From contig NZ_JAHKQH010000008.1 of the NCBI RefSeq assembly GCF_018861025.1, positions 62,001 through 126,000 of the forward strand: a stretch of 64,000 nucleotides of DNA, given 5' to 3'. This DNA is from Psychrosphaera sp. B3R10. Lineage in GTDB: Bacteria > Pseudomonadota > Gammaproteobacteria > Enterobacterales > Alteromonadaceae. Each line of letters begins with the position of its first letter. The stretch's first letter is position 1. Below, one piece after another: positions 9,443 through 44,820 of this stretch. Under the pieces are notes generated by a model. It had not been told where the DNA came from. It searched no databases and saw nothing but the letters and a program-made list of their open reading frames with translations. The position numbers and the translations under genes were made by a program.

Positions 9443-9775
9443 GTGGACAAAACAAGTACAAAAACAAATGCCTATTTTAGGTTTTTAAGTTTGAATAAAC
9501 TACAGGCATTTACTTTGGCGCGTGAGGTAATTGGGGCAAGTTATGAAACACAGGGCGTTGAAAATCGATTTGTAGGTTTGGTCCCTTTGACAGGTATGAG
9601 CTTAGATGACATTAATGACTTTTATGTCAGACAAAGGATCGAATTAGAGCAATGCGATATTTTAGTGTCGGCGCAGACCAACGTTGAAAATTTGGAACAT
9701 GAGGCCCCAGAAATTGTGAATCGTATGCTCAAGTACATTGATTGTAAATTACGCTTTTCGGTGACGAAGGCATAA
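9443..9775 (+). CDS. Small protein of unknown function
   Basis: A 110-residue, probably cytoplasmic protein with no signal peptide or membrane segment. The frame can be extended upstream, but GTG at 9443 has an excellent AGAGAGGA ribosome-binding site 9 bases away, so I place the start there. The C-terminal half looks mixed helical and has one D-Y-V-R-Q-R-I run and two cysteines. No family is recognised. It sits alone between a terminator and the GNAT gene, 59 bases before the latter, and could be co-transcribed with it. Confidence 0.5.
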   Translation: MDKTSTKTNAYFRFLSLNKLQAFTLAREVIGASYETQGVENRFVGLVPLTGMSLDDINDFYVRQRIELEQCDILVSAQTNVENLEHEAPEIVNRMLKYIDCKLRFSVTKA

Positions 9776-23913: not shown

Positions 23914-24831
23914 TTATAGTGGGTTCATAAATTCGCTAATCTGCTGATGGGTAAGTGTTGGTGTTGCCCCATGGTTTTGCGCAACCATTGCGCCAACTGC
24001 ACAGGCAAAGTCAACCGCATATTGCGCATTGTCTGTGTTACATAGTTGGTAAATAAGCGAACCTAAAAAGGAGTCTCCGGCGCCGACCGTGTCAACTACG
24101 CTAATTAAATACCCAGAATTGTAATAATTAGCACCTTTTACGGTTAGAAGTGCGCCATGGCTGCCCTTTGTAACACATAGGTAGTTGGTATTTGTTTGTT
24201 GAGCAATAAACGCGAGGTTTTGTTCCAGAGAATGATATTTACACCCCATTGCTTTGGCTATCTCATATAACTCATCATCATTTAACTTAATAAAATCCGC
24301 CTGTGTCATTAACTCGATTAATGTGTCGAGTTGGTAATGAGGTGCACGTAAATTAACATCAAATACTTTAAAATTAGCAACATCTATTAGTGATTTTAAA
24401 GTTGATAATGATGTAGTACTACGCCCAATTAAACTCCCAAAAACAAATACATCAGACGCTGCAACTTTGTCCAGAAGACTTGTTGTTAGTTCAATATTGT
24501 CCCAGGCAACATCAGCAACAATGTTATAACTTGCTGAGCCACTGCTATCGAGCGTGACTTCGACAGTGCTGGTTTTTTTATTGTCATTTATGGCAATATA
24601 GTCACAACTCACATTTTTGTCTTTTATTTCACTAAGCAGTTCATTACCTAGAACGTCGTTTCCGACAGCACTAATCATATCCGCTTTTATTCCTAACGAA
24701 TTGATCCTGACACACATATTTAACGGTGCACCACCGAGCCGTTTGCCGGTGTCGAAGCAATCCCAAAGTACCTCGCCAAAACAACTCACACGAATATCAT
24801 TTGTTGGTTTATGGTTTATTAATATACTCAT
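23914..24831 (-). CDS. PfkB-family fructokinase
   Basis: A 305-residue ribokinase/PfkB sugar kinase. FGEVLWDCFDTGKRLGGAPLN is the N-terminal substrate-binding start, close to bacterial fructokinases, and DTVGAGDSFLG near residue 250 carries the catalytic aspartate and anion hole. It should phosphorylate fructose to fructose 6-phosphate. It begins 3 bases after the mannitol dehydrogenase stop and is the last gene of the permease-dehydrogenase-kinase operon. This supports the route mannitol to fructose to fructose 6-phosphate. The substrate is inferred from the context. Confidence 0.88.
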   Translation of the reverse strand: MSILINHKPTNDIRVSCFGEVLWDCFDTGKRLGGAPLNMCVRINSLGIKADMISAVGNDVLGNELLSEIKDKNVSCDYIAINDNKKTSTVEVTLDSSGSASYNIVADVAWDNIELTTSLLDKVAASDVFVFGSLIGRSTTSLSTLKSLIDVANFKVFDVNLRAPHYQLDTLIELMTQADFIKLNDDELYEIAKAMGCKYHSLEQNLAFIAQQTNTNYLCVTKGSHGALLTVKGANYYNSGYLISVVDTVGAGDSFLGSLIYQLCNTDNAQYAVDFACAVGAMVAQNHGATPTLTHQQISEFMNPL

Positions 24832-24834
24832 AAT

Positions 24835-26358
24835 TTAATGCTCTTTTGTTTCGAGAGTTGCAGCCATTAAATGCGAAATCTTACTGTTTGGTTCATATAG
24901 TGCTTTGATTGCTTTTGTATAACCATCGACAAATTGTTGGCTTTGAGGTAGATAGCCAAATATGCTATTTAGTTCGATGAATGACAATGTATTATTTGCT
25001 GTTTTTTGCGCAAATTGCTTTAACTCTTTTGCCATAACATCTTGTATTTCTAGGGCTTGACCTTGTTCGTCTACCCCCTTGTCACTATAAAGACACCAGG
25101 CGGCTACAACTAACGTTGCCAATGAGACGTCGCGGTTTAATGCGAGGTTTTCGTTGATACTCGCGATTAAAAATTTTGGTAATTTTGCCGAGCTTTCTGA
25201 ACAGATCCGGGTCAAACTATCTTTAATGTTTGGATTTGAAAAACGGTCAAGTAGTGTATCTTTGTACTGTTCTAAATCGATACCGTCTAATTGCTCTAAA
25301 AGGTGACTTACTTCTAAATCCATAAAAGAGCGTAGGTATTTTGCAAATAAAGGATCAGAAACGGTTTCGTCAATTGTCGAATAGCCATGAATGGATCCCA
25401 ATAAGCCAAGTACAGAATGGCCGGCATTTAGAAGTCTTATTTTCATTTTTTCGTATGGGGTAACATCTTTTACTAACTGGGCGCCTACGTTTTCTAAATT
25501 GGGACGTCCGTTACTAAAGTTATCCTCAATTACCCATTGAGCAAAAGACTCACACGTGATTGGCCAGCCGTCAGCGACACCATAGGCTTGTACTACATAA
25601 TCAATGTCAGATTGTTTAGATATTGGCGTAATACGGTCAACCATGGCATTTGGAAATGCCACGTTTTGTTTGATCCAATTAGCTAATTCCACATCTTGTT
25701 TATCAGCAAATGCCAGCAACATTTTTCGTGTCACATGGCCATTATGTTGAATGTTATCGCATGATTGTACGGTAAACGCCGGTAATCCTGCTTCTTTACG
25801 TTGTTTGAGAGCAGCTGTTAAATAACCAAAAGCCGTAATTGGATCATTTGGGTTAGCAATATCGTGCATAATATCTGGGTTCGTGTAATCAAATTCACCC
25901 GTTGATGGGTGAAAGTTATATCCGCCTTCCGTAATGGTAAGCGACACTATTTTGGTATCACTATGCGCCATTTTTTCAATGACGGCTTGTTTGTCATCGA
26001 GAGCAAATAAAAACTCCACCATCGAACCAATAACTGTATTATCTATTTGTCCATTTGGATGACGTATGGTAACTGTGTATAGGTTGTCTTGTTTTTGCAG
26101 GACGTCGCGTAACCCTCGATTTGCTTCGAGCAAACCAACGCCACATATTCCCCATTGTTCATTACCTGGCTGCTTTAATAATTCGTTAATATATGCTGCT
26201 TGATGAGCGCGGTGAAACCCGCCAACGCCGATATGAACAATACCTGCTTTTACTTTACTTCGGTCGTAGGTTGGCACGTCAATAGTAGCGGGCAGAGTTG
26301 CGACGTTAAATTGGTTTAAATCATTAACCTGTGCTTGTACTTTCTGTAATTGTGTCAT
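24835..26358 (-). CDS. Mannitol 2-dehydrogenase (polyol-specific long-chain dehydrogenase)
   Basis: 507 aa, the size of polyol-specific long-chain dehydrogenases such as Pseudomonas fluorescens mannitol 2-dehydrogenase. The N-terminal Rossmann domain has GIVHIGVGGFHRAHQAAY. The catalytic K-x4-N-x2-H is seen as K306, N311 and H314 in KIRLLNAGH. It oxidises D-mannitol (and often D-arabinitol or D-sorbitol) to the ketose with NAD+. The mannonate/tagaturonate reductases (UxuB/UxaB) belong to the same superfamily, but the N-terminal sequence and the fructokinase neighbour favour mannitol. It lies 28 bases downstream of the permease gene. Confidence 0.9.
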   Translation of the reverse strand: MTQLQKVQAQVNDLNQFNVATLPATIDVPTYDRSKVKAGIVHIGVGGFHRAHQAAYINELLKQPGNEQWGICGVGLLEANRGLRDVLQKQDNLYTVTIRHPNGQIDNTVIGSMVEFLFALDDKQAVIEKMAHSDTKIVSLTITEGGYNFHPSTGEFDYTNPDIMHDIANPNDPITAFGYLTAALKQRKEAGLPAFTVQSCDNIQHNGHVTRKMLLAFADKQDVELANWIKQNVAFPNAMVDRITPISKQSDIDYVVQAYGVADGWPITCESFAQWVIEDNFSNGRPNLENVGAQLVKDVTPYEKMKIRLLNAGHSVLGLLGSIHGYSTIDETVSDPLFAKYLRSFMDLEVSHLLEQLDGIDLEQYKDTLLDRFSNPNIKDSLTRICSESSAKLPKFLIASINENLALNRDVSLATLVVAAWCLYSDKGVDEQGQALEIQDVMAKELKQFAQKTANNTLSFIELNSIFGYLPQSQQFVDGYTKAIKALYEPNSKISHLMAATLETKEH

Positions 26359-26386: not shown

Positions 26387-28108
26387 TTATGCTGCTGAAT
26401 TTAATGCTTTTTGGCGTTTTAATGACCAGTAGGCACTGGCAAAATAAGTCAACGTACATAAAAAGCAGGCTATCTCAAATTGTGATTTATTAAGTTTATA
26501 GACACTCATAGTGTCACTGAAAAACATAACTTGAGTTGCAAAGACAAGTATTATTACTAACGAGGTTAATGAAACCGCATTAAGTATTTTACTTAACTTG
26601 GATTTGTCGACGATAAAATCAGGCAGGTTTTTACATTGATCCGCCTGGAACTTCTTGATAGCAACTTGGTTTGATTTTTCGTCAATAATTTGTTGAGTGT
26701 AGTCTTCATCTGCGCCATATTTTTTGGCTAATACAGTGTAAAGGATGATAGTGAATATCCACGTTGGGATAAATAGGTAGTAGAAGGACATAACGTCTAG
26801 GGCATTTAAACCAAAACCAAATATTAGTGCAGAAGCCCATGACGCTATGGCCGGAATACTTCGTGAAATATTTTTATATTTTGCCCAGTAGCGTGTTAAT
26901 CCAATTTTTGGAAATAATACGTGTTCGGCAAAAACGATACCGCCAACTGGTACAACAATAAGCCCTGCGTACGTTAACAGTGGCAACATCTGAGAAAAAA
27001 CAAACGGGAAACACGCTATAATAACGGTCACTATGCCTACGATTGCTGTTGTGCGCTCGCGAGTATGGTTCACAAATATAGATTGTGCGGCCAAACCAGC
27101 ACGATATAAATTGGCATTTGCAGTCGTCCAACCGGCGATTATTATAATAACAAAACCAGTCCAACCAAGTGCATGATAGGCAACATCGCCTGGATCAAGT
27201 GATGAGATAGTGGTTTTAAGCAGTACCGCAGCGCCAGCGCCCATAATACCTGCCGAAATCCATGCTAAATAGTGGCCAAAAAACATCCCTACACCAGAGA
27301 ATAAGCCGTAACTTTTACGTTTAGCAAATCGAAAAATCGCCATATCAATTAGACCAAAATGGGTGATGGAATTAGCGGCCCAGGCAAAACCGATGACTTC
27401 TAATAGGCCAATGCCTTTTTCACCTTCCGCATTGGTCCCTGTCCAAATTGAGGAATCTCCAATGGTCATGAAGTCCTGCCAACCGCTAAGTGACGTGACA
27501 CCTAATACGTGGTTTGATAGTTCTGGAAATAAAGCAAATGAGCCTGCGATAAATATGGCGAATAACCAAGGTGCACATATTTTAGAAAAGTCCGCCACGG
27601 TTGAAAACCCATACATGGCAACAGCGACGACAATTGAGCCAACCGCAAGGACGATGAGGACAAATGCAAAACTATTGGGGTACCAATTTAGTTGAGCAGG
27701 GATATCAAATAAAAACCGTACTGCAGTTGAGGAAACCGTGATCATGGCAGCGGAAATTACACTGAATATAATGACATTTGCCCAATTGTAGAGCTTTGTC
27801 ATTGAATTACCTGCAATTTTATTTAGGTAATTATAAAGACTTAGGCGTGTTTCTACTGCAATTGGTGCAGTTAGTAACCACCATGAACACATAGCAAGTA
27901 AATTACCGATTAATAAACCGAGTAATATATCGCTTGTTGCAGCGCCAAGAGCAACAAATGTCGCACCGATAACAAATTCTGTTGCGGCAACATGCTCTCC
28001 GGCATAAATACCAGCAAAATGTTTCCAACCGTGAAGTTTATTATCAGCAACAGGGAGTTGCTCCTCATTTACATCCTCAAATGTTTGACCTTGTTGATTT
28101 TCAGTCAT
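26387..28108 (-). CDS. NCS1-family (purine-cytosine permease-like) transporter
   Basis: A 573-residue inner-membrane permease with about 12 hydrophobic helices. The first helix region, HFAGIYAGEHVAATEFVIG in outline, and the glycine-rich helices resemble the nucleobase:cation symporter-1 (CodB) family. The frame extends upstream to 28315, but ATG at 28108 has AGGAAA at ideal spacing and begins a soluble N-terminus typical of NCS1 proteins; the extension would run through the promoter and operator region. It is the first gene of the mannitol dehydrogenase-fructokinase operon, so it may carry a polyol or hexose and not a nucleobase. The substrate is unproven. Confidence 0.85.
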   Translation of the reverse strand: MTENQQGQTFEDVNEEQLPVADNKLHGWKHFAGIYAGEHVAATEFVIGATFVALGAATSDILLGLLIGNLLAMCSWWLLTAPIAVETRLSLYNYLNKIAGNSMTKLYNWANVIIFSVISAAMITVSSTAVRFLFDIPAQLNWYPNSFAFVLIVLAVGSIVVAVAMYGFSTVADFSKICAPWLFAIFIAGSFALFPELSNHVLGVTSLSGWQDFMTIGDSSIWTGTNAEGEKGIGLLEVIGFAWAANSITHFGLIDMAIFRFAKRKSYGLFSGVGMFFGHYLAWISAGIMGAGAAVLLKTTISSLDPGDVAYHALGWTGFVIIIIAGWTTANANLYRAGLAAQSIFVNHTRERTTAIVGIVTVIIACFPFVFSQMLPLLTYAGLIVVPVGGIVFAEHVLFPKIGLTRYWAKYKNISRSIPAIASWASALIFGFGLNALDVMSFYYLFIPTWIFTIILYTVLAKKYGADEDYTQQIIDEKSNQVAIKKFQADQCKNLPDFIVDKSKLSKILNAVSLTSLVIILVFATQVMFFSDTMSVYKLNKSQFEIACFLCTLTYFASAYWSLKRQKALNSAA

Positions 28109-28159
28109 GGTAGTTTCCTGTTTTATTAGTATTACACCGTATGAATTTTCATTAGATGC

Positions 28160-28223
28160 ATTATATATTTTTTTTGTAACGACCCTTTTGTGGGCAAATG
28201 CCCCTTTTGTGGGCATAATCCCT
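28160..28223 (-). promoter_or_regulatory. Promoter with tandem operator boxes of the polyol operon
   Basis: On the minus strand a perfect TATAAT (28160-28165) lies about 50 bases before the permease start. Upstream are two related 15-bp boxes, GTGGGCAAATGCCCC (28190-28204) and GTGGGCATAATCCCT (28209-28223), written in plus orientation and starting 19 bp apart. The hexamer 17 bp upstream of the -10 is AAAGGG, a poor -35, and it abuts the proximal box, which suggests activator dependence. The same pair with the same spacing occurs at 44445-44478. The candidate binding protein is the SorC-family regulator at 37379-38338. Confidence 0.6.
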
Positions 28224-28320
28224 TTATTGGGGTTGGATGTCAATATAAAGTGTTTAAAAAACACGCTGTTTTTTGATTTTAAATAGATTAAATTTAAAAA
28301 CATCAATATTTTCAATGTAG

Positions 28321-28367
28321 TAAAAATCGAGGTAAGGGGGGTAAATCGACTAAAAATCGATTTTTAG
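28321..28367. promoter_or_regulatory. Palindrome and repeat upstream of the polyol promoter
   Basis: A perfect 18-bp palindrome CTAAAAATCGATTTTTAG (28350-28367) is preceded by another copy of its half, TAAAAATCGA, at 28321-28330, exactly 30 bp before the copy at 28351. The space from 28109 to 28625 has no convincing gene; apart from this element it holds the promoter region described above and the terminator of the barrel gene. Confidence 0.4.
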
Positions 28368-28572
28368 CGAAGGTAGACTTGTTGTAAACGAAGGGAGCAG
28401 AAGTCAATTGAGAGAGTTTTGGTCGTAAAATGAGCGGTGTTCTTGTCTGTTTTCTGTAAAAATTGGTTTAAGGCGTTTGGGTTAGGCCAACAAATTTAAC
28501 GTGATTTTTATTATACAGGCCGTTAAATATTCGTTGAATGATCTTTTAATCATGGGACAGTGCTAGAAATTA

Positions 28573-37378: not shown

Positions 37379-38338
37379 TTAGTCGATACTCAGCAATCGC
37401 TCTGCCGTATACTCATTAGTAATTAGGGCATTTACTAACTTAGAGCGTAATGCGCCTAAAATGGAATACACTTTATCTTCGCCTGAAGCAATAGCACATA
37501 CATATTTGTCGGAATTGACCGTAAGTGGTGTACTTGCGACTCGGTCATTAACCGCGCAGTCAATTAAGTTTCCTTTTACATCGAACACCCAACTGATTAT
37601 TTCGCCAACGGCACCTTTATCTTGTAACTCGGCTAATTCTTCCTCGGCAACAAATCCATCTAGATGAAGTGGTGAATTTATACCTAAGTTACCAACACCA
37701 ACAAAAGTTACATCTGCTTGAGCGGCTAATTTTAGATTATTGGCGATATAACTTTGGGCGTGTAATTGTGCTTTTTCTTCCTTGCTGTTCGGTAAGACAG
37801 GGAGGGGCATTGGGTAATGTTTAGCATTTATGTGTTCCGCCATTCTCATAACGACGTCATAAGAAGACGCTGAGCCGTCGGAGGCCATGTTACCTAAAAG
37901 GGCTACAATTTGATGTTGTTCGCAATTTAACAACGCTAATTCTTCGACACACGCCCGTAAAACTCTGCCGGTTCCCATCGCGATCACTTTTGGTTCGGGC
38001 GATTTTAAGTGCATTTCAATTTCGCTTGCACCTGCTTGCGCTAACCCCAATGTAGAGGTGGTATCACCTTCATCACTAGGCACAACGGTACAGGACTTCA
38101 AACCAAATCTATTTTGTAATTTAACTTTAAGATCCATGCATTTAGCTATTGGATGTTCTAGTCTAACTTTTATTAACCCTTCACTGACGGCTAAAGCAAC
38201 CATACGTTGTGCAGACTGACGAGAGATGTTGAGTTTTTTCGCTATTTCTTCCTGCGTTTTTCCCGCAACGTAATATAACCATCCTGCACGGGCGGCATCG
38301 TCTAGTTTTCTTATTTCTGAATTAGTTCGCTTAACCAC
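37379..38338 (-). CDS. SorC-family sugar-binding transcriptional regulator
   Basis: 319 residues. An N-terminal helix-turn-helix (KTQEEIAKKLNISRQSAQRMVALAVSEGL, residues about 28-56) is followed by the SorC/DeoR-type effector domain, which binds a phosphorylated sugar (GVGNLGINSPLH, GEIISWVFDVKGN and the C-terminal VNALITNEYTAERLL). It starts 9 bases after the HAD gene and lies between the two polyol loci. It is the best candidate to bind the paired boxes at 28190-28223 and 44445-44478. Whether it activates or represses is not known. Confidence 0.9.
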   Translation of the reverse strand: MVKRTNSEIRKLDDAARAGWLYYVAGKTQEEIAKKLNISRQSAQRMVALAVSEGLIKVRLEHPIAKCMDLKVKLQNRFGLKSCTVVPSDEGDTTSTLGLAQAGASEIEMHLKSPEPKVIAMGTGRVLRACVEELALLNCEQHQIVALLGNMASDGSASSYDVVMRMAEHINAKHYPMPLPVLPNSKEEKAQLHAQSYIANNLKLAAQADVTFVGVGNLGINSPLHLDGFVAEEELAELQDKGAVGEIISWVFDVKGNLIDCAVNDRVASTPLTVNSDKYVCAIASGEDKVYSILGALRSKLVNALITNEYTAERLLSID

Positions 38339-38347
38339 GATTTACCT

Positions 38348-39052
38348 CTAAACTTTTAATGATGTACTGAGCGAAGGTACTTTTTCAAATAACTGCTTCC
38401 AATGGGATATTGTACTAATACCTTTGTAGGTTTGAGTAGCGTTATCTCTATTTTTAAGGTGTCCTGCGCCAACATAACGTAGAACATGCATTTTTGCTGC
38501 TAATGCGCCCCGTAACCCAGCTACTGAGTCTTCAATTACCAAACAATTTTCCGGTAAAACACCCATTTTGTTTGCTGCGTGCAAAAACAGATCTGGGGCT
38601 GGTTTACCATTTTCAACCTCTGAAGCGGTGAATACCCGTTCAACAAAGTAAGACGCTAAGTTAGTTATACGAAGGGCATTTGATACTTTTTCTGGACTGC
38701 TACTGGTCGCTACACAGGTCTTAATATTGAGCTGAGATAACATCCATTCCAATTGTTCTGTTTGATTTAATTCAGTTTCAAAAACGTCTATTAACGCTTT
38801 ACGATATTTGTGTCTGAATTCCGTTGTCAGAATTACATCAAAGTCAGTCAACACCTTTGCTGTTACGTGCTCAAAATTAAACCCCAAAAAATGTTTGTGG
38901 AAATAATCCTCAGACACATCGACGCCTAATTCTTTTAGTAACCCAAGTAGGACTCGTTGGCTCAGTATTTCACTATCGATTAACACACCGTCACAATCAA
39001 AAATAATTAATTCAATCGAATTAAGGTCGGTGTTAATTAAGGTGTTTAGCAT
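38348..39052 (-). CDS. HAD-superfamily phosphatase/phosphomutase (CbbY-like)
   Basis: 234 residues with all HAD motifs: LIIFDCDGVLIDSE (I, nucleophile Asp), CVATSSSPEK (II), the Lys in ENGKPAPDLFL (III) and LVIEDSVAGLRGA (IV). The type resembles CbbY/beta-phosphoglucomutase and sugar-phosphate phosphatases. It is co-transcribed with the SorC regulator next to the sorbitol/mannitol ABC genes. A role in removing toxic polyol or sugar phosphates is plausible but inferred. Confidence 0.88.
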   Translation of the reverse strand: MLNTLINTDLNSIELIIFDCDGVLIDSEILSQRVLLGLLKELGVDVSEDYFHKHFLGFNFEHVTAKVLTDFDVILTTEFRHKYRKALIDVFETELNQTEQLEWMLSQLNIKTCVATSSSPEKVSNALRITNLASYFVERVFTASEVENGKPAPDLFLHAANKMGVLPENCLVIEDSVAGLRGALAAKMHVLRYVGAGHLKNRDNATQTYKGISTISHWKQLFEKVPSLSTSLKV

Positions 39053-39332: not shown

Positions 39333-40343
39333 TTAGGCTATATTAGGCAGTGTTTTGCCCGTCGCGTCAAAATGAAGTAGCTTGTTCTTTTGTGGGCTTA
39401 AATAAATTTCATCGCCATATTTAAATGGACAATCACCTGACGTTTTAACCGTAAAAGTATCATGACCGTCTACATGCACATGCAAAAATGTCTCTGAGCC
39501 CAAATGTTCAATCACACCAATTTTACCTGCCCATTGTCCGCCGGTTGTCGAAATTTCAATATGCTCTGGGCGAATACCTAAGCTACAAGTTCCATCTATA
39601 GTAGAAGGCTCAATATCGATGAAGTTAATTTTAGGTGAGCCAATAAACCCAGCAACAAAGCGGTTTGCTGGGTTGTTATAAAGCTCAAGTGGGCTGCCAA
39701 CTTGTTCAATGATACCGCCATTAAAAACGGCAATTCTATCTGCCATTGTCATAGCTTCCACCTGATCATGGGTAACATAAACCATGGTTGTATTTAGACT
39801 TTTATGAAGCTCCGATATTTCTAACCGCATATTTACGCGCAGCGACGCATCTAAGTTTGATAACGGTTCATCAAACAAAAAAGCAGAAGGTTGGCGGACG
39901 ATTGCTCGACCAATCGCAACTCTTTGTCGTTGACCACCGGATAATTGGCCGGGCTTCCGATCAAGGTAATCCGTTAGGTTTAATGTTTTTGCAACACTCG
40001 CGATTTTTTCTTCGATGATGTCATCGTTAATTTTGGCTCGCTTTAACGGGAATGCGATATTGTTTCTAACCGACATATGAGGATATAAAGCATATGATTG
40101 GAATACCATAGCTAAACCGCGTTTCGCAGGTGGGGTTGTCGTCGCATCTTGTCCATCAATTTCAATGGTGCCGCTTGTGGTATCTTCTAATCCTGCAATC
40201 ATTCGTAATAATGTTGATTTTCCACAACCTGATGGACCAACAAATACAATGAACTCGCCGTCTTTAATTTCCAAATCAATTGGTTTAATTACGCTTACAT
40301 CGCCAAAATCTTTTGTTACTTGTTTTAAATGAATACTACCCAT
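39333..40343 (-). CDS. smoK: Sorbitol/mannitol-type ABC transporter ATPase
   Basis: A 336-residue MalK/UgpC-type ATPase: Walker [11 protein letters not shown]-loop [11 protein letters not shown], signature [14 protein letters not shown], Walker [13 protein letters not shown]-loop [11 protein letters not shown], and a C-terminal OB-like regulatory domain ([11 protein letters not shown]). It energises uptake through the two permeases encoded upstream. It is the last gene of the barrel-binding protein-permease-permease-ATPase operon, 11 bases after the second permease. Confidence 0.92.
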
Positions 40344-40354
40344 TATAAATTCTC

Positions 40355-41185
40355 CTATTTAACTGCGCCGAAACTTAATCCGCGCACTAATTGTTTTTGA
40401 CTAAACCAACCAAGAATTAAAATTGGCACTATGGCCATTGCAGAAGCTGCTGATAACTTGGCGTAAAATAGTCCTTCAGGGCTAGAATAACTGGCGATAA
40501 AAGCCGTTAGGGGGGCTGCATTAGCGGCCGTTAGGATGAGAGTCCAGAATGCTTCATTCCAGGCTAAAATGACATTGAGTAATAACGTTGAAGCGATCCC
40601 AGGTAGCGCAATAGGCAACAGGACGTAAAGTATTTCTTCACCAATACTCGCACCGTCCATTCGAGCGGCTTCTAGAACTTCGTTTGGGATCTCTCTAAAG
40701 TAGGTATAAAGCATCCAAACCATAATGGGTAAGTTGATTAATGTCATAACAATGACTAAACCGACCTTAGTATCTAACAACCCAAAATCTCTAAACAAAA
40801 GATAAATTGGTATTAATACACCGACAGGCGGTAACATTTTGGTTGATAACATCCACATTAAAAGATTTTTTGTGCGCTTTGTTTGCACAAATGCCATAGA
40901 CCAAGCTGCAGGAATTGCTATTAATAAGCCCAATATGCTCGAACCAATTGAAATGACTATTGAATTCCAAAAGTGATTAAAATAGGGCGATCGCGCTAAA
41001 ACGTCTTCGTAGTTTTCTAAAGTCCAATCAAACATGAATAAACTAGGTGAAGCCGAAATTGCCTCAGCTTCAGTTTTAAAACTCGTTATTAATGTCCATA
41101 AAATTGGAAAAAATATAAGACCGCTAATGGTCCAAGCAATAAAGGTATAAATAAGCTTGGTTTTGATACTATTGTTGTTCGCCAT
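40355..41185 (-). CDS. smoG: Sugar/polyol ABC transporter permease (MalG-like)
   Basis: 276 residues with six hydrophobic helices and the EAA cytoplasmic loop [25 protein letters not shown], which contacts the ATPase. This is the MalG-like second permease of CUT1 carbohydrate importers. It starts 3 bases after the other permease. Assignment to sorbitol/mannitol follows from the binding protein. Confidence 0.9.
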
Positions 41186-41188
41186 GTC

Positions 41189-42061
41189 TTAATCCTCCAA
41201 GTTCTTGCCAATGAGGCGCATTAAAAATATTGCTACAATATTGGCAATAATAACGGCGACTATGCCACCGGCAGAACCTCCACCAACATCAAACTGCAAC
41301 AACGACTGGGTATAAATTAAGTACGTTATATTGGTTGATGCGTATCCTGGACCACCGCTTGTTGTTACTAATATCTCGGCAAAAATTGACAATAAAAAAA
41401 TTGTTTCTATTAAAATAACTGCCGTTATTGCGCGTGACAGATGCGGTAGGACGATGTAGTAAAATTTACTAAATGGTCCTGCTCCGTCTAAGTCAGCAGC
41501 CTCAAGTTGTTCTCGGTCAAGAGATTGAATCGCTGTAAGTAGGATTAATGCGGCAAACGGTAGCCATTGCCACGACACAATAACAATGATTGAAAGCAGC
41601 GGGATTTGGGCAAAAAAATCGATAGGGGTCATACCCAGCCAATTGGCAAAATGGGCAAATAAGCCATTAACGGGGTTCATTAGCATATTTTTCCAAACCA
41701 GCGCTGAAACCGTTGGCATAACAAAAAAGGGGGCTAGAACCATTATTCGAACATAGTTTCGGCCCCAAATTGCTTGATCAAGCAAGATAGCTAAACCAAT
41801 ACCACCACCAAGTGTGATTAGTAAAACACCACCAACAAGTAGCAGGGTATTAAAAAAAGATTCAAAAAATGCCGGATCAGTAAGGAAAAACTCATAGTTC
41901 ATGAAACCAATAAACTCTTCGGTTCCAGGACTAAGCAGGTTGTAATCTAAAAATGAAAAATATAGCGTCATGCACAGCGGAACTAACATCCAAGCCAACA
42001 GTAAAACAACTGAAGGGACCAGCATGAGTCGAGCGAGCGCACGTGAATTTGTGGTAGCCAT
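41189..42061 (-). CDS. smoF: Sugar/polyol ABC transporter permease (MalF-like)
   Basis: 290 residues with six hydrophobic helices and the EAA loop EAADLDGAGPFSKFYYIVLPHLSRA. It is the first permease of the CUT1 importer. It is separated from the binding-protein gene by 74 bases holding a hairpin, which probably lowers its expression relative to the binding protein. Confidence 0.9.
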   Translation of the reverse strand: MATTNSRALARLMLVPSVVLLLAWMLVPLCMTLYFSFLDYNLLSPGTEEFIGFMNYEFFLTDPAFFESFFNTLLLVGGVLLITLGGGIGLAILLDQAIWGRNYVRIMVLAPFFVMPTVSALVWKNMLMNPVNGLFAHFANWLGMTPIDFFAQIPLLSIIVIVSWQWLPFAALILLTAIQSLDREQLEAADLDGAGPFSKFYYIVLPHLSRAITAVILIETIFLLSIFAEILVTTSGGPGYASTNITYLIYTQSLLQFDVGGGSAGGIVAVIIANIVAIFLMRLIGKNLED

Positions 42062-42087
42062 AACTAAGACCTTTTAATCGTGATAGC

Positions 42088-42114
42088 TGGGCAAGCTCTA
42101 GTTGAACTTACCCA
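42088..42114 (-). other. Intercistronic hairpin after the binding-protein gene
   Basis: TGGG-C-AAG / CTT-A-CCCA stem with an 11-nt loop. Such hairpins after binding-protein genes commonly protect the upstream message and reduce read-through to the permeases. Confidence 0.5.
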
Positions 42115-42135
42115 AACCATTAATAGACGAATGAA

Positions 42136-43443
42136 TTACTTAGGGTAACGCGCTTTTCTCATGGCACGTTCGACTAAACGTTGAGCACTTTGTAATGCTT
42201 GTTTTACAGTCATTTGGCCAGTTAACGCGGCGGCAAATTGTTGACCAACAGCTGTACCAATACCTTGGAATTCTGGTATAGCAACAAACTGAACACCAAC
42301 ATAAGGAACCGGTTTAACCGTTGGGTTTATAGGATCTGCAGATTGGATAGAATCCAAAGTGATCTGTGCAAAAGGCGCAGCTGCCATGTAGTCTGGATTA
42401 TTATAAAGTGACGCTCGAGTCCCTGGAGGTACGTTAACCCAGCCTTTTTTGGCCGCGACTAACTCAGTGTACTCTTTAGATGTTGCCCAACTAATAAAAC
42501 GTTGTGCTGCATTTGATTTCTTACTGCTTGCAGGAATTGCCAGCGTCCAAGACCATAACCAATTGCCTCGTTTGCCTAGGCCATTGTCAGGCGCAAGAGC
42601 AAATCCAACATGTTCAGCAACTTCAGAGTTTTCTTTATTTGTAACAAATGCGCCAGCCACTGTTGCATCAATCCAAATACCACACTTTCCGGTTTGAAAG
42701 AGCGCTAGGTTTTCATTAAAACCATTAGCTGAAGATCCCGGAGGACCATACTTTGTCATCGAATCAACATAATATTGTAAAGTGTCATGCCATTCTTGAC
42801 TGTCAAATTGCGGTTTCCAATTTTGATCAAACCATCTTGCGCCAAATGAGTTAGACATTGCTGTAATTAAGGCAATATTTTCTCCCCAACCCGCTTTACC
42901 TCGCAAACATAAACCATAGACACCAGATTGTTTGTCCGTCATTGCTTTTGCGGCTTTTTGAATAAACTCCCACGATGGTGCTTTAGGCATAGTTAAACCC
43001 GCTTTGGCCATTAAGTCTGTGCGGTACATAACCATTGAACTTTCTGCATAAAATGGCGCAGCGTATAATTTATCTTTAACAGTTAGGCCGTTTCTGATCG
43101 CAGGCAGAATATCGTCTACGTCATAATTTTCACCTAACTTGTCAAGCTCTCTGAGCCAGCCTTGTTTTCCCCAAATAGGGACTTCATATGTACCTATTGT
43201 CATAACATCATACTGTCCACCTTTTGTTGCAACATCGGTCGTGACTCGTTGACGTAGTATATTTTCTTCTAAGGTCACCCATTTTAAATTAATATCTGGG
43301 TTTTCAGAGGTGAAACTCTTACTGAGTTCTTTCATAGTGATCATGTCACCATTGTTTACTGTTGCAATCGTAATGGTTTCAGCAAGGACGGCGGTGCTCA
43401 AAAATAAAGAACAACATGCAATAATTGATTTTTTAATCGACAT
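42136..43443 (-). CDS. smoE: Sorbitol/mannitol-type ABC transporter substrate-binding protein
   Basis: 435 residues with a signal peptide ending VLA-ETIT. The sequence TIATVNNGDMITMKEL ... KWVTLEENILRQRVTTD ... TIGTYEVPIWGKQGWL closely follows the SmoE/MtlE polyol-binding proteins of Rhodobacter and Pseudomonas as I know them. It is a CUT1-type periplasmic binding protein and the specificity determinant of the transporter. It is flanked on both sides by intercistronic hairpins, fitting a need for excess binding protein. Confidence 0.9.
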   Translation of the reverse strand: MSIKKSIIACCSLFLSTAVLAETITIATVNNGDMITMKELSKSFTSENPDINLKWVTLEENILRQRVTTDVATKGGQYDVMTIGTYEVPIWGKQGWLRELDKLGENYDVDDILPAIRNGLTVKDKLYAAPFYAESSMVMYRTDLMAKAGLTMPKAPSWEFIQKAAKAMTDKQSGVYGLCLRGKAGWGENIALITAMSNSFGARWFDQNWKPQFDSQEWHDTLQYYVDSMTKYGPPGSSANGFNENLALFQTGKCGIWIDATVAGAFVTNKENSEVAEHVGFALAPDNGLGKRGNWLWSWTLAIPASSKKSNAAQRFISWATSKEYTELVAAKKGWVNVPPGTRASLYNNPDYMAAAPFAQITLDSIQSADPINPTVKPVPYVGVQFVAIPEFQGIGTAVGQQFAAALTGQMTVKQALQSAQRLVERAMRKARYPK

Positions 43444-43522: not shown

Positions 43523-44287
43523 TTAGAACAAGTTTACTGCTACTTGCAGTGCGCCAAGTTCAAGGGCCGGGTTCCACATCGCGGTAGCAGATACTGGAAA
43601 TGTTTTGCCCATTGCATATAGGTTTTTTGAATAGGTAAAGCCAACATTGTTAATATTAGCTTTGTCTGAATAGAAGTTTTTGTCGTTAACTGGTGAGAAC
43701 GCGCCACCAATAAACGCTTTTACTTGTTCGCCATCTTTGCCATGCCAAACAGGTGCTGATACTTCAATGTAGTTTGTAAAAGATTGTTCTTTTTCACCTG
43801 AGTCTTCATCTATGTACGTATCAATACCTTGCACGATGACAGAATAATAAACAGAAATTGGCGTTTCGCCTTGGAATGTATATCCCGCACCAATATCAAC
43901 AAAGTTGCCGGTTTTAGATGGATCAGTTGAGTAGTTGAAAATATCCACATCACTGTCTGAAATAGAGGAGTGGTTACCGTGATTTACGATTTCAACAAAA
44001 AAGTCGTCTGTAAACTTGTGAGAGGCGTAGTATGTAAACTCTTTAAACTCGCCATTGAAAGAACCACCGCCCCAAAGGCCGTAAGTCGTTTTTTTGTCTT
44101 CAGATTTGTACTCTAAAGAGCCAGCTGTCATAACGCCGTCGGTGACAATAAAACCGTGCCATAAATGGTTTGTTTTAAGATCAAAGGCTAACTTCCATTC
44201 ACCACTACTCTGAGCGTGCAGTTGAGTGCTTAATGTACTTGCTAGGATTGCTGTAATTGCAGTTATTTTGTGTGTGTTATTTAACAT
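43523..44287 (-). CDS. Outer-membrane beta-barrel protein of the polyol ABC operon
   Basis: 254 residues with a signal peptide (ending LHA-QSS), alternating beta strands and a C-terminal phenylalanine (ALQVAVNLF), the usual BAM-recognised end of outer-membrane barrels. The mature start FDLKTNHLWHGFIVTDG resembles several unnamed porin-like families. It is the first gene of the ABC operon, so I infer a channel for the polyol; this is not shown by sequence similarity. Confidence 0.7.
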   Translation of the reverse strand: MLNNTHKITAITAILASTLSTQLHAQSSGEWKLAFDLKTNHLWHGFIVTDGVMTAGSLEYKSEDKKTTYGLWGGGSFNGEFKEFTYYASHKFTDDFFVEIVNHGNHSSISDSDVDIFNYSTDPSKTGNFVDIGAGYTFQGETPISVYYSVIVQGIDTYIDEDSGEKEQSFTNYIEVSAPVWHGKDGEQVKAFIGGAFSPVNDKNFYSDKANINNVGFTYSKNLYAMGKTFPVSATAMWNPALELGALQVAVNLF

Positions 44288-44412: not shown

Positions 44413-44478
44413 TTTATATTCATTGTATTGGCATTTTATAACTAATGGGCAAAAGCTCACCTCGTGGTCATACTCCCA
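44413..44478 (-). promoter_or_regulatory. Promoter with tandem operator boxes of the ABC/outer-membrane operon
   Basis: Two boxes in plus orientation, ATGGGCAAAAGCTCA (44445-44459) and GTGGTCATACTCCCA (44464-44478), start 19 bp apart. They match the two boxes of the polyol operon one to one (12 of 14 leading bases for the distal pair). A TATAAA hexamer on the minus strand (44413-44418) lies 26 bp past the proximal box, against 24 bp in the other operon. The ATG of the barrel gene is about 125 bases further on. Confidence 0.6.
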
Positions 44479-44493
44479 CCGAGAGGGAGGAAC

Positions 44494-44820
44494 GTCAATA
44501 GTTTTTTGTTTGTTAAATGCACAATTATTTAGAGGTTAATAAATAATTTATATATTTCAGATTGTTACGGTTGAGGTTTTTACTATTTTTTTTCTAAAAT
44601 TTGGATTGGCACTGAAAAAAACTTGTATTGGTTGTTGCTTGATTTAAAAATGTTCCAACTACACTTTCTAAAAGCCTCAGTTAAATTTTATTGGACTTGA
44701 ATTTATATGTTTGAGAGTTAATCAATTGGGGGTCTTAAATAAAAAGCGCTAAATTAAGTAGTGAGGCTTGGGCGAAAAATATCGAGTTGGTTTTTCAAAA
44801 TTTGATTTGAATATCTGGAT
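44494..44820. other. AT-rich stretch with no recognised content
   Basis: These 327 bases lie between the operator boxes of the ABC operon and the ald terminator. They are rich in A and T runs and hold no convincing gene, repeat or hairpin. Confidence 0.5.

Follow-up and report, generated by a model that had tools for sequence, protein, structure and literature searches.

Paired palindromic boxes at two polyol operons of Psychrosphaera sp. B3R10, a candidate promoter-operator of a SorC-family regulator

The smo locus of Sinorhizobium meliloti, as described in the accessible part of PMC10433430, carries a regulator gene beside smoEFGK, together with genes for polyol dehydrogenases and a putative phosphatase. 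The regulator, SmoC, acts negatively and is called DeoR-type in that account; a smoC mutant shows high smo expression whatever the growth conditions, and frk and frcK mutants develop mannitol uptake on fructose, a hint that the inducing compound is a polyol or fructose in its unphosphorylated form. A related Mtl pathway has been predicted in one Shewanella genome, with five genes, the available sections of the paper naming mtlR-II, mtlP, mtlZ-II and mtlX (PMC2996990), and MtlR2 is listed as a regulon in the accessible text of PMC3223726. Shewanella frigidimarina failed to grow on mannitol despite its predicted pathway, for which the authors blame rearrangements (PMC2996990, same sections).

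At the level of DNA binding the nearest described proteins are CggR and DeoR of B. subtilis, which belong to the SorC family and, according to the part of PMC11229326 available to us, bind as dimers of dimers to two half-operators, the CggR repeats lying 20 bp apart when counted from the printed sequence. The literature searched, which included few subscription journals and did not extend to RegPrecise, yielded no description of a SmoC-type operator, and the accessible part of PMC5507952 yielded nothing on a SmoC/MtlR2-type regulator.

Mannitol is a major carbon source of brown-algal origin. The stretch of DNA analysed here, termed the window, comprises 64,000 nucleotides of Psychrosphaera sp. 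B3R10 and carries two operons on the minus strand, 16 kb apart, which we assign to a single mannitol-use switch. For polyol regulators of this widespread family the paired boxes supply a precisely defined candidate operator that can be transferred to other members. We consider it very probable that paired boxes upstream of both operons constitute the operator of the SorC-family regulator encoded at 37379-38338, which would repress both operons until a polyol or free fructose releases it. The genes of the two operons are as follows.

26387..28108, minus strand: LeuT-fold permease of 573 aa, NCS1-like by fold, first gene of operon 1
24835..26358, minus strand: mannitol dehydrogenase family protein (PF01232, 4.8e-54; PF08125, 1.1e-49)
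23914..24831, minus strand: PfkB-family fructokinase candidate (PF00294, 1.4e-47; best NCBIfam match fructokinase, below cut-off)
43523..44287, minus strand: probable outer-membrane protein (label of the first-pass annotation), first gene of operon 2
39333..43443, minus strand: SmoEFGK-like polyol ABC transporter, of which a homologous block adjoins the regulator in relatives
42136-43443, minus strand: ABC transporter substrate-binding protein
41189-42061 and 40355-41185, minus strand: ABC transporter permeases
39333-40343, minus strand: ABC transporter ATPase
38348..39052, minus strand: HAD-family phosphatase, adjoining the regulator in many relatives
37379..38338, minus strand: SorC-family regulator, last gene of operon 2, SmoC/MtlR2-type by gene context

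The regulator carries a PF04198 sugar-binding domain (E 1.5e-64, residues 63-317) and an N-terminal helix-turn-helix, and it shows near-full-length matches to DeoR, LsrR and SorC structures (E 2e-29 to 1e-26). It is the only SorC-family gene in the window and, at E<=0.001, its search of the genome returns only itself. In many relatives its gene adjoins smoEFGK or the permease-mannitol dehydrogenase-fructokinase genes, as expected of the SmoC/MtlR2 type, and the regulators of alphaproteobacterial loci with smo-like gene content are about 53-62% identical to it. Judged by this gene context and by likeness to the named alphaproteobacterial loci, it is probably a SmoC orthologue. Compared with the smo locus, the window adds an outer-membrane gene and a permease, and its regulator gene is the last of the transport operon and also faces the head of a second operon 9 kb away. 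The predicted Shewanella mtl gene set, as far as it is given in the accessible text, fits the HAD-regulator-permease-dehydrogenase-fructokinase cluster of four of our loci (L117, L118, L121 and L122), by a name-to-gene match that we infer.

The permease is probably the MtlP predicted in Shewanella, a name that derives from the matching gene order in the available sections of PMC2996990. Searches of Pfam and NCBIfam at E<=10 returned nothing for it, and those of PDB sequences nothing meaningful. Its structural model (pLDDT 77) has a LeuT fold with a TM score, normalised to the query, of 0.56-0.58 against NCS1 structures, the top distinct proteins in the fold search being CodB (E 3.4e-9) and Mhp1 (E 4.6e-7), both NCS1; the likeness to NCS1 is one of fold and not of sequence match to a curated family. 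Of 147 genomes, 12 encode an orthologue of at least 64% identity, and each of these 12 belongs to the 14 with a close regulator; six further genomes show weaker matches only (21-49%). As side observations, the product is a candidate polyol or fructose permease, and a paralogue, 50% identical, is encoded elsewhere in its own genome (G000:C47). For the dehydrogenase the best NCBIfam match is fructuronate reductase, below the cut-off, so that the profile assigns no exact substrate. The outer-membrane candidate at 43523-44287 has no Pfam or NCBIfam match; relatives of its product, 61-71% identical, are encoded near the regulator in three Paraglaciecola loci (L084, L085 and L124).

The first-pass annotation had claimed that a pair of boxes, with given sequences and a 19-bp offset, precedes both operons, and this proved correct: two pairs of 14-bp boxes with a 19-bp offset are present on the minus strand, at 28191-28223 and 44446-44478. 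At site 1, 5' of the permease-mannitol dehydrogenase-fructokinase operon, the minus strand reads AGGGATTATGCCCA-5-GGGGCATTTGCCCA from 28223 to 28191 and, at site 2, 5' of the outer-membrane/ABC operon, it reads TGGGAGTATGACCA-5-TGAGCTTTTGCCCA from 44478 to 44446. The elements of the two sites, including the promoter motifs considered below, are listed here.

28238..28243, minus strand: -35 TTGACA of the permease-mannitol dehydrogenase-fructokinase promoter (10/12 promoter match, 17-bp spacer)
28210..28223, minus strand: candidate operator box 1 of site 1, upstream and promoter-distal, AGGGATTATGCCCA, with -10 GATTAT inside at 28215-28220
28191..28204, minus strand: candidate operator box 2 of site 1, downstream, GGGGCATTTGCCCA, at about +5 to +18 of the inferred transcript
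44493..44498, minus strand: -35 TTGACG of the outer-membrane/ABC operon promoter, 17 bp from GAGTAT at 44470-44475
44465..44478, minus strand: candidate operator box 1 of site 2, upstream, TGGGAGTATGACCA, containing -10 GAGTAT
44446..44459, minus strand: candidate operator box 2 of site 2, downstream, TGAGCTTTTGCCCA

Matches without mismatch to the originally proposed consensus occur in the window only at 28190/28209 and 44445/44464. Each box is a near-palindrome, approximately TGRGCAT.ATGCYCA, and while the claim that the same pair recurs is borne out, the shared orientation that was also emphasised carries little meaning for near-palindromic boxes. The boxes were at first taken for direct repeats, a reading given up in favour of palindromes when both arms proved to match the consensus TGRGCWTWWGCYCA. 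A genome pattern TGCCC-N7-GGGCA, found at five places of which one is a window site, was set aside as too narrow and as spanning the gap between the boxes. That the two stretches are alike by chance might be argued from single boxes, which at up to two mismatches are no commoner in the window than expected (16 found, 20.0 expected); this locates the signal in the pair, and the spacing, genome-wide and promoter-offset results that follow (97 loci, models R1 and R2, and TTGAC offsets) reduce the probability of a chance likeness to next to nothing.

To examine conservation, we took 17.5-20 kb of sequence surrounding each of 16 regulator genes, 14 of them close to that of the window (from 13 genomes) and two distant (G134 and G139). 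In 11 of the 16 loci the two-site consensus of the window outscored each of ten shuffled versions of that locus, with a margin of one match in three of these (L033, L037 and L045), and it did not do so in L032, L035, L036, L041 and L046. The palindromic box consensus was fixed after these 16 loci and then applied to 80 further named loci. Among 97 loci with regulator orthologues, from Gamma- and Alphaproteobacteria, strong pairs (>=23/28) occur at the 19-bp spacing in 67, at each other spacing from 14 to 30 bp in 0-3, and in shuffles in none; the loci are related and some coincide (at least L035 with L081), so that they do not represent 97 independent events. At a 27-bp spacing 43 of the 97 reach at least 21, and only two reach 23 or more. 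Within 2.2 kb of 20 operon heads, a count in which two sites enter twice, from both divergent genes, the best 19-bp pair exceeds those at spacings of 15-24 bp in 18; the exceptions are the smo operon of G071, where another spacing outscores 19 bp (24 against 22), and G073, where no pair above 19/28 was found upstream of the HAD-regulator operon. The pair thus stands beside orthologous operons of relatives in most of the loci examined, as the regulon proposal would have it, and the presence of such pairs on two operon promoters, with their recurrence in relatives from two classes, argues for a real polyol-use switch of a known general kind.

Genome specificity was assessed with two models, R1 built from 24 gammaproteobacterial sites, including both sites of the window, and R2 from 21 such sites, excluding both of these and the same-genus site L043. 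Scanning the 4.7-Mb genome of the strain at E<=10, with the best 150 of 1733 candidates scored, R1 returned the window sites at 6.5e-6 and 3.9e-4 and a third at 0.44. R2, with the best 150 of 1905 candidates scored, returned the window sites at rank 1 (E 7.5e-5) and rank 2 (E 0.16), the next following at 0.33, so that site 2 alone is weak under this model. Among the best 150 candidates the pair is therefore specific to the two sites of the window, and a weak third site could be missed at that depth.

A regulator search of 147 genomes gave matches in 23, of which 14, including the strain itself, reach at least 51% identity. With the best 48 candidates scored per genome, a depth at which weak sites may escape, sites at E<=0.01 were detected in 11 of these 14 genomes and in two of the other 133, and all 11 sites at E<=0.0012 fall in genomes with a close regulator orthologue. 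Eight of those 11 are training sites of the model, the others being G083:C43, G060:C88 and G071:C99, and the last two lie 5' of permease-dehydrogenase operons on contigs other than that of the regulator. Among the genomes without a close regulator, G009 and G080 have sites at E 0.005 and 0.008, which is about the chance expectation over 147 genomes; in G052 a site at E 0.0065 (contig C23) lies away from the regulator, and G031, G073 and G130 carry the regulator with no site at E<=0.01 among their best 48 candidates. Together with the orthologous operons, this genome specificity and co-occurrence support, at the sequence level, the first-pass proposal of a candidate two-operon regulon of the SorC-family regulator.

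Since the binder is assigned by association throughout, the pair could be recognised by a different transcription factor that merely shares the neighbourhood, and HexR is reported, in the accessible text of PMC5343134, to cover mannitol utilization in Shewanellaceae and Vibrionales, which also makes a second regulatory layer possible. However, the genome has no second gene like that of the regulator, neighbourhood alone is insufficient to explain the pairs on separate contigs in G060 and G071, and the pair recurs beside the regulator in Alphaproteobacteria whose neighbouring genes differ in order and content. We regard a different binder as highly improbable and retain the regulator at 37379-38338 as the likely ligand of the boxes.

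The first-pass annotation had placed a -10 TATAAT beyond the proximal box, with no proper -35, and in this respect the comparison led elsewhere: the conserved promoter-like elements are a -35 upstream of the pair and a -10 inside the upstream box. At site 1, TTGACA-17-GATTAT (28243-28215, minus strand) is, with 10/12, the best of three sigma-70-like matches in 28000-28500, where 1.5 are expected in shuffles, and its -10 position would put the start site near 28208. At site 2, TTGACG-17-GAGTAT falls under the threshold of a generic sigma-70 scanner, its -10 matching 3/6 bases, and the call rests on comparison, with a predicted start near 44463.

For that comparison, the box score (>=22) was the sole criterion for choosing pairs, with up to six taken per locus and near-duplicates discarded; each offset between -55 and -1 relative to box 1 was then scanned for TTGAC in both orientations. 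In gammaproteobacterial pairs it lies exactly at -20 in 24 of 42, with at most three at any other offset, and in the 44 alphaproteobacterial pairs it lies at -22 in 17, at -21 in 10 and at -20 in three, with at most one elsewhere; overall, 29/42 and 30/44 pairs, respectively, have it at -20 to -22. The 13 gammaproteobacterial pairs without TTGAC at these positions include operon heads of G031, G074 and G130. Among 52 smoC-smoE loci, which were not de-duplicated and are mostly alphaproteobacterial (L100, L126 and L127 being gammaproteobacterial), TTGAC occurs at -23 to -20 in 51, with none elsewhere from -60 to -1, L127 being the locus without it. The hexamer 17 bases past TTGAC, inside box 1, is mostly GAATAT, GATTAT, GAGTAT, AGTAAT or AGTATT, and at the G060:C88 and G071:C99 permease-dehydrogenase sites TTGACA is separated by an 18-bp spacer from the same -10.

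These offsets bear on two other readings. The regulator might be an activator, or act in both ways, bound upstream of a promoter that uses the TATAAT at 28160-28165 as its -10; a perfect TATAAT does start 25 bases past box 2 at site 1, and EryD, which is similar to SmoC, is reported in the accessible part of PMC10433430 as both positive and negative, so that activation is conceivable. However, the perfect copy is confined to site 1 and, within 50 bases downstream of box 2, no position carries a TATAAT-like hexamer (>=5/6) in more than two of 29 gammaproteobacterial sites, which had been picked for TTGAC upstream; the upstream TTGAC is nearly fixed, and SmoC itself acts negatively in S. meliloti (PMC10433430, same part). 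The downstream TATAAT was accordingly rejected as the promoter, and an activator reading appears distinctly improbable. The second reading takes the conserved TTGAC as part of the operator, a third half-site, since at the gammaproteobacterial offset a third box, 19 bp upstream, could be read as starting with it. Its register relative to the box nevertheless moves by 1-2 bp in most smoC-smoE loci, and the -10-like hexamer moves along with it, so that the 17 bp are mostly kept: the hexamer is GAATAT or GATTAT at box position 3 in Gammaproteobacteria and, in smoC-smoE loci, GAATAT or GAGTAT at position 1, or AGTAAT or AGTATT at position 2. We find a third half-site barely credible and treat TTGAC as the -35 of a promoter overlapping the pair.

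The overlap is visible in the boxes themselves. Upstream boxes break the palindrome at a base that lies inside the -10. Where TTGAC lies at -20 to -22, box 2 has C at palindrome position 4 (numbered from 0) in 28/29 gammaproteobacterial and 30/30 alphaproteobacterial cases, and box 1 has A there in 23/29 and T in 25/30, respectively, which fits the earlier remark that each box resembles its counterpart. In Gammaproteobacteria the A falls on base 2 of the -10, which sigma-70 promoters require most; in Alphaproteobacteria the T falls on base 4 or 3 of the hexamer, for which the requirement is less definite. A single substituted palindrome position that differs between two classes thus shows the predicted repressor site and the -10 to be using the same bases. 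More tentatively, and with less than even confidence, we suggest that a fixed SmoC-type promoter-operator cassette, in which the upstream palindrome forms the -10, has been kept across Alpha- and Gammaproteobacteria with its register shifted by 1-2 bp, and that in many Alphaproteobacteria a second pair takes part in looping.

The proposed mechanism is as follows. Each palindrome would bind one dimer through the N-terminal helix-turn-helix of the regulator, and two such dimers, joined as elsewhere in the SorC family, would span the 19 bp between the palindrome centres. A sigma-70 promoter is predicted to have its -10 (GATTAT or GAGTAT) within the upstream palindrome and, 17 bp ahead of that hexamer, its -35 (TTGACA or TTGACG), and the downstream palindrome would cover about +5 to +18; occupation of both would block the polymerase, which makes repression the natural reading. 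The pair would therefore lie over the -10 and the start site, in contrast to the operators of CggR (+32 to +77) and DeoR (-60 to -21), and the CggR DNA-binding domain, which is winged, also differs (accessible text of PMC11229326). Without inducer the regulator would shut operon 1, encoding permease, mannitol dehydrogenase and fructokinase, as well as operon 2, encoding outer-membrane protein, SmoEFGK, phosphatase and the regulator, and, as the regulator gene is the last of operon 2, it may control its own expression. The signal that frees the regulator is probably a polyol or the free fructose to which that polyol is converted.

A second pair of boxes, scoring >=19, lies across the regulator's stop codon in 21 of the 52 smoC-smoE loci, the remaining 31 reaching at most 17; of 1549 control windows elsewhere in the loci, main operators included, 34 score >=19. 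These loci, found among L086-L120 together with L127, L143, L144 and L153 (for example L112:1015-1047), all have box 2 starting at the in-frame stop (21/21), and the pair lies 110-135 bp upstream of the main pair: at 130-135 bp in 17, at 110-111 bp in three and at 118 bp in one. A looping operator, a 3' hairpin and, in part, a side effect of conserved C-terminal codons are all candidate explanations; since these codons partly fix its first box, selection for an operator there is no more than a possibility.

In some gammaproteobacterial operators a third box is seen 19 bp further downstream (L038:11060, L117:9110 and, by eye, L039:10973); a box of at least 10/14 starting 38 bp after the start of box 1 occurs in 5/29 gammaproteobacterial and 0/30 alphaproteobacterial sites and is thus not general. 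Two operator pairs within one fetched stretch were seen in several loci of Alteromonas and Paraglaciecola, at 1596 and 1954 in L102, at 9027 and 12555 in L101, and at 9653 and 9917 in L124.
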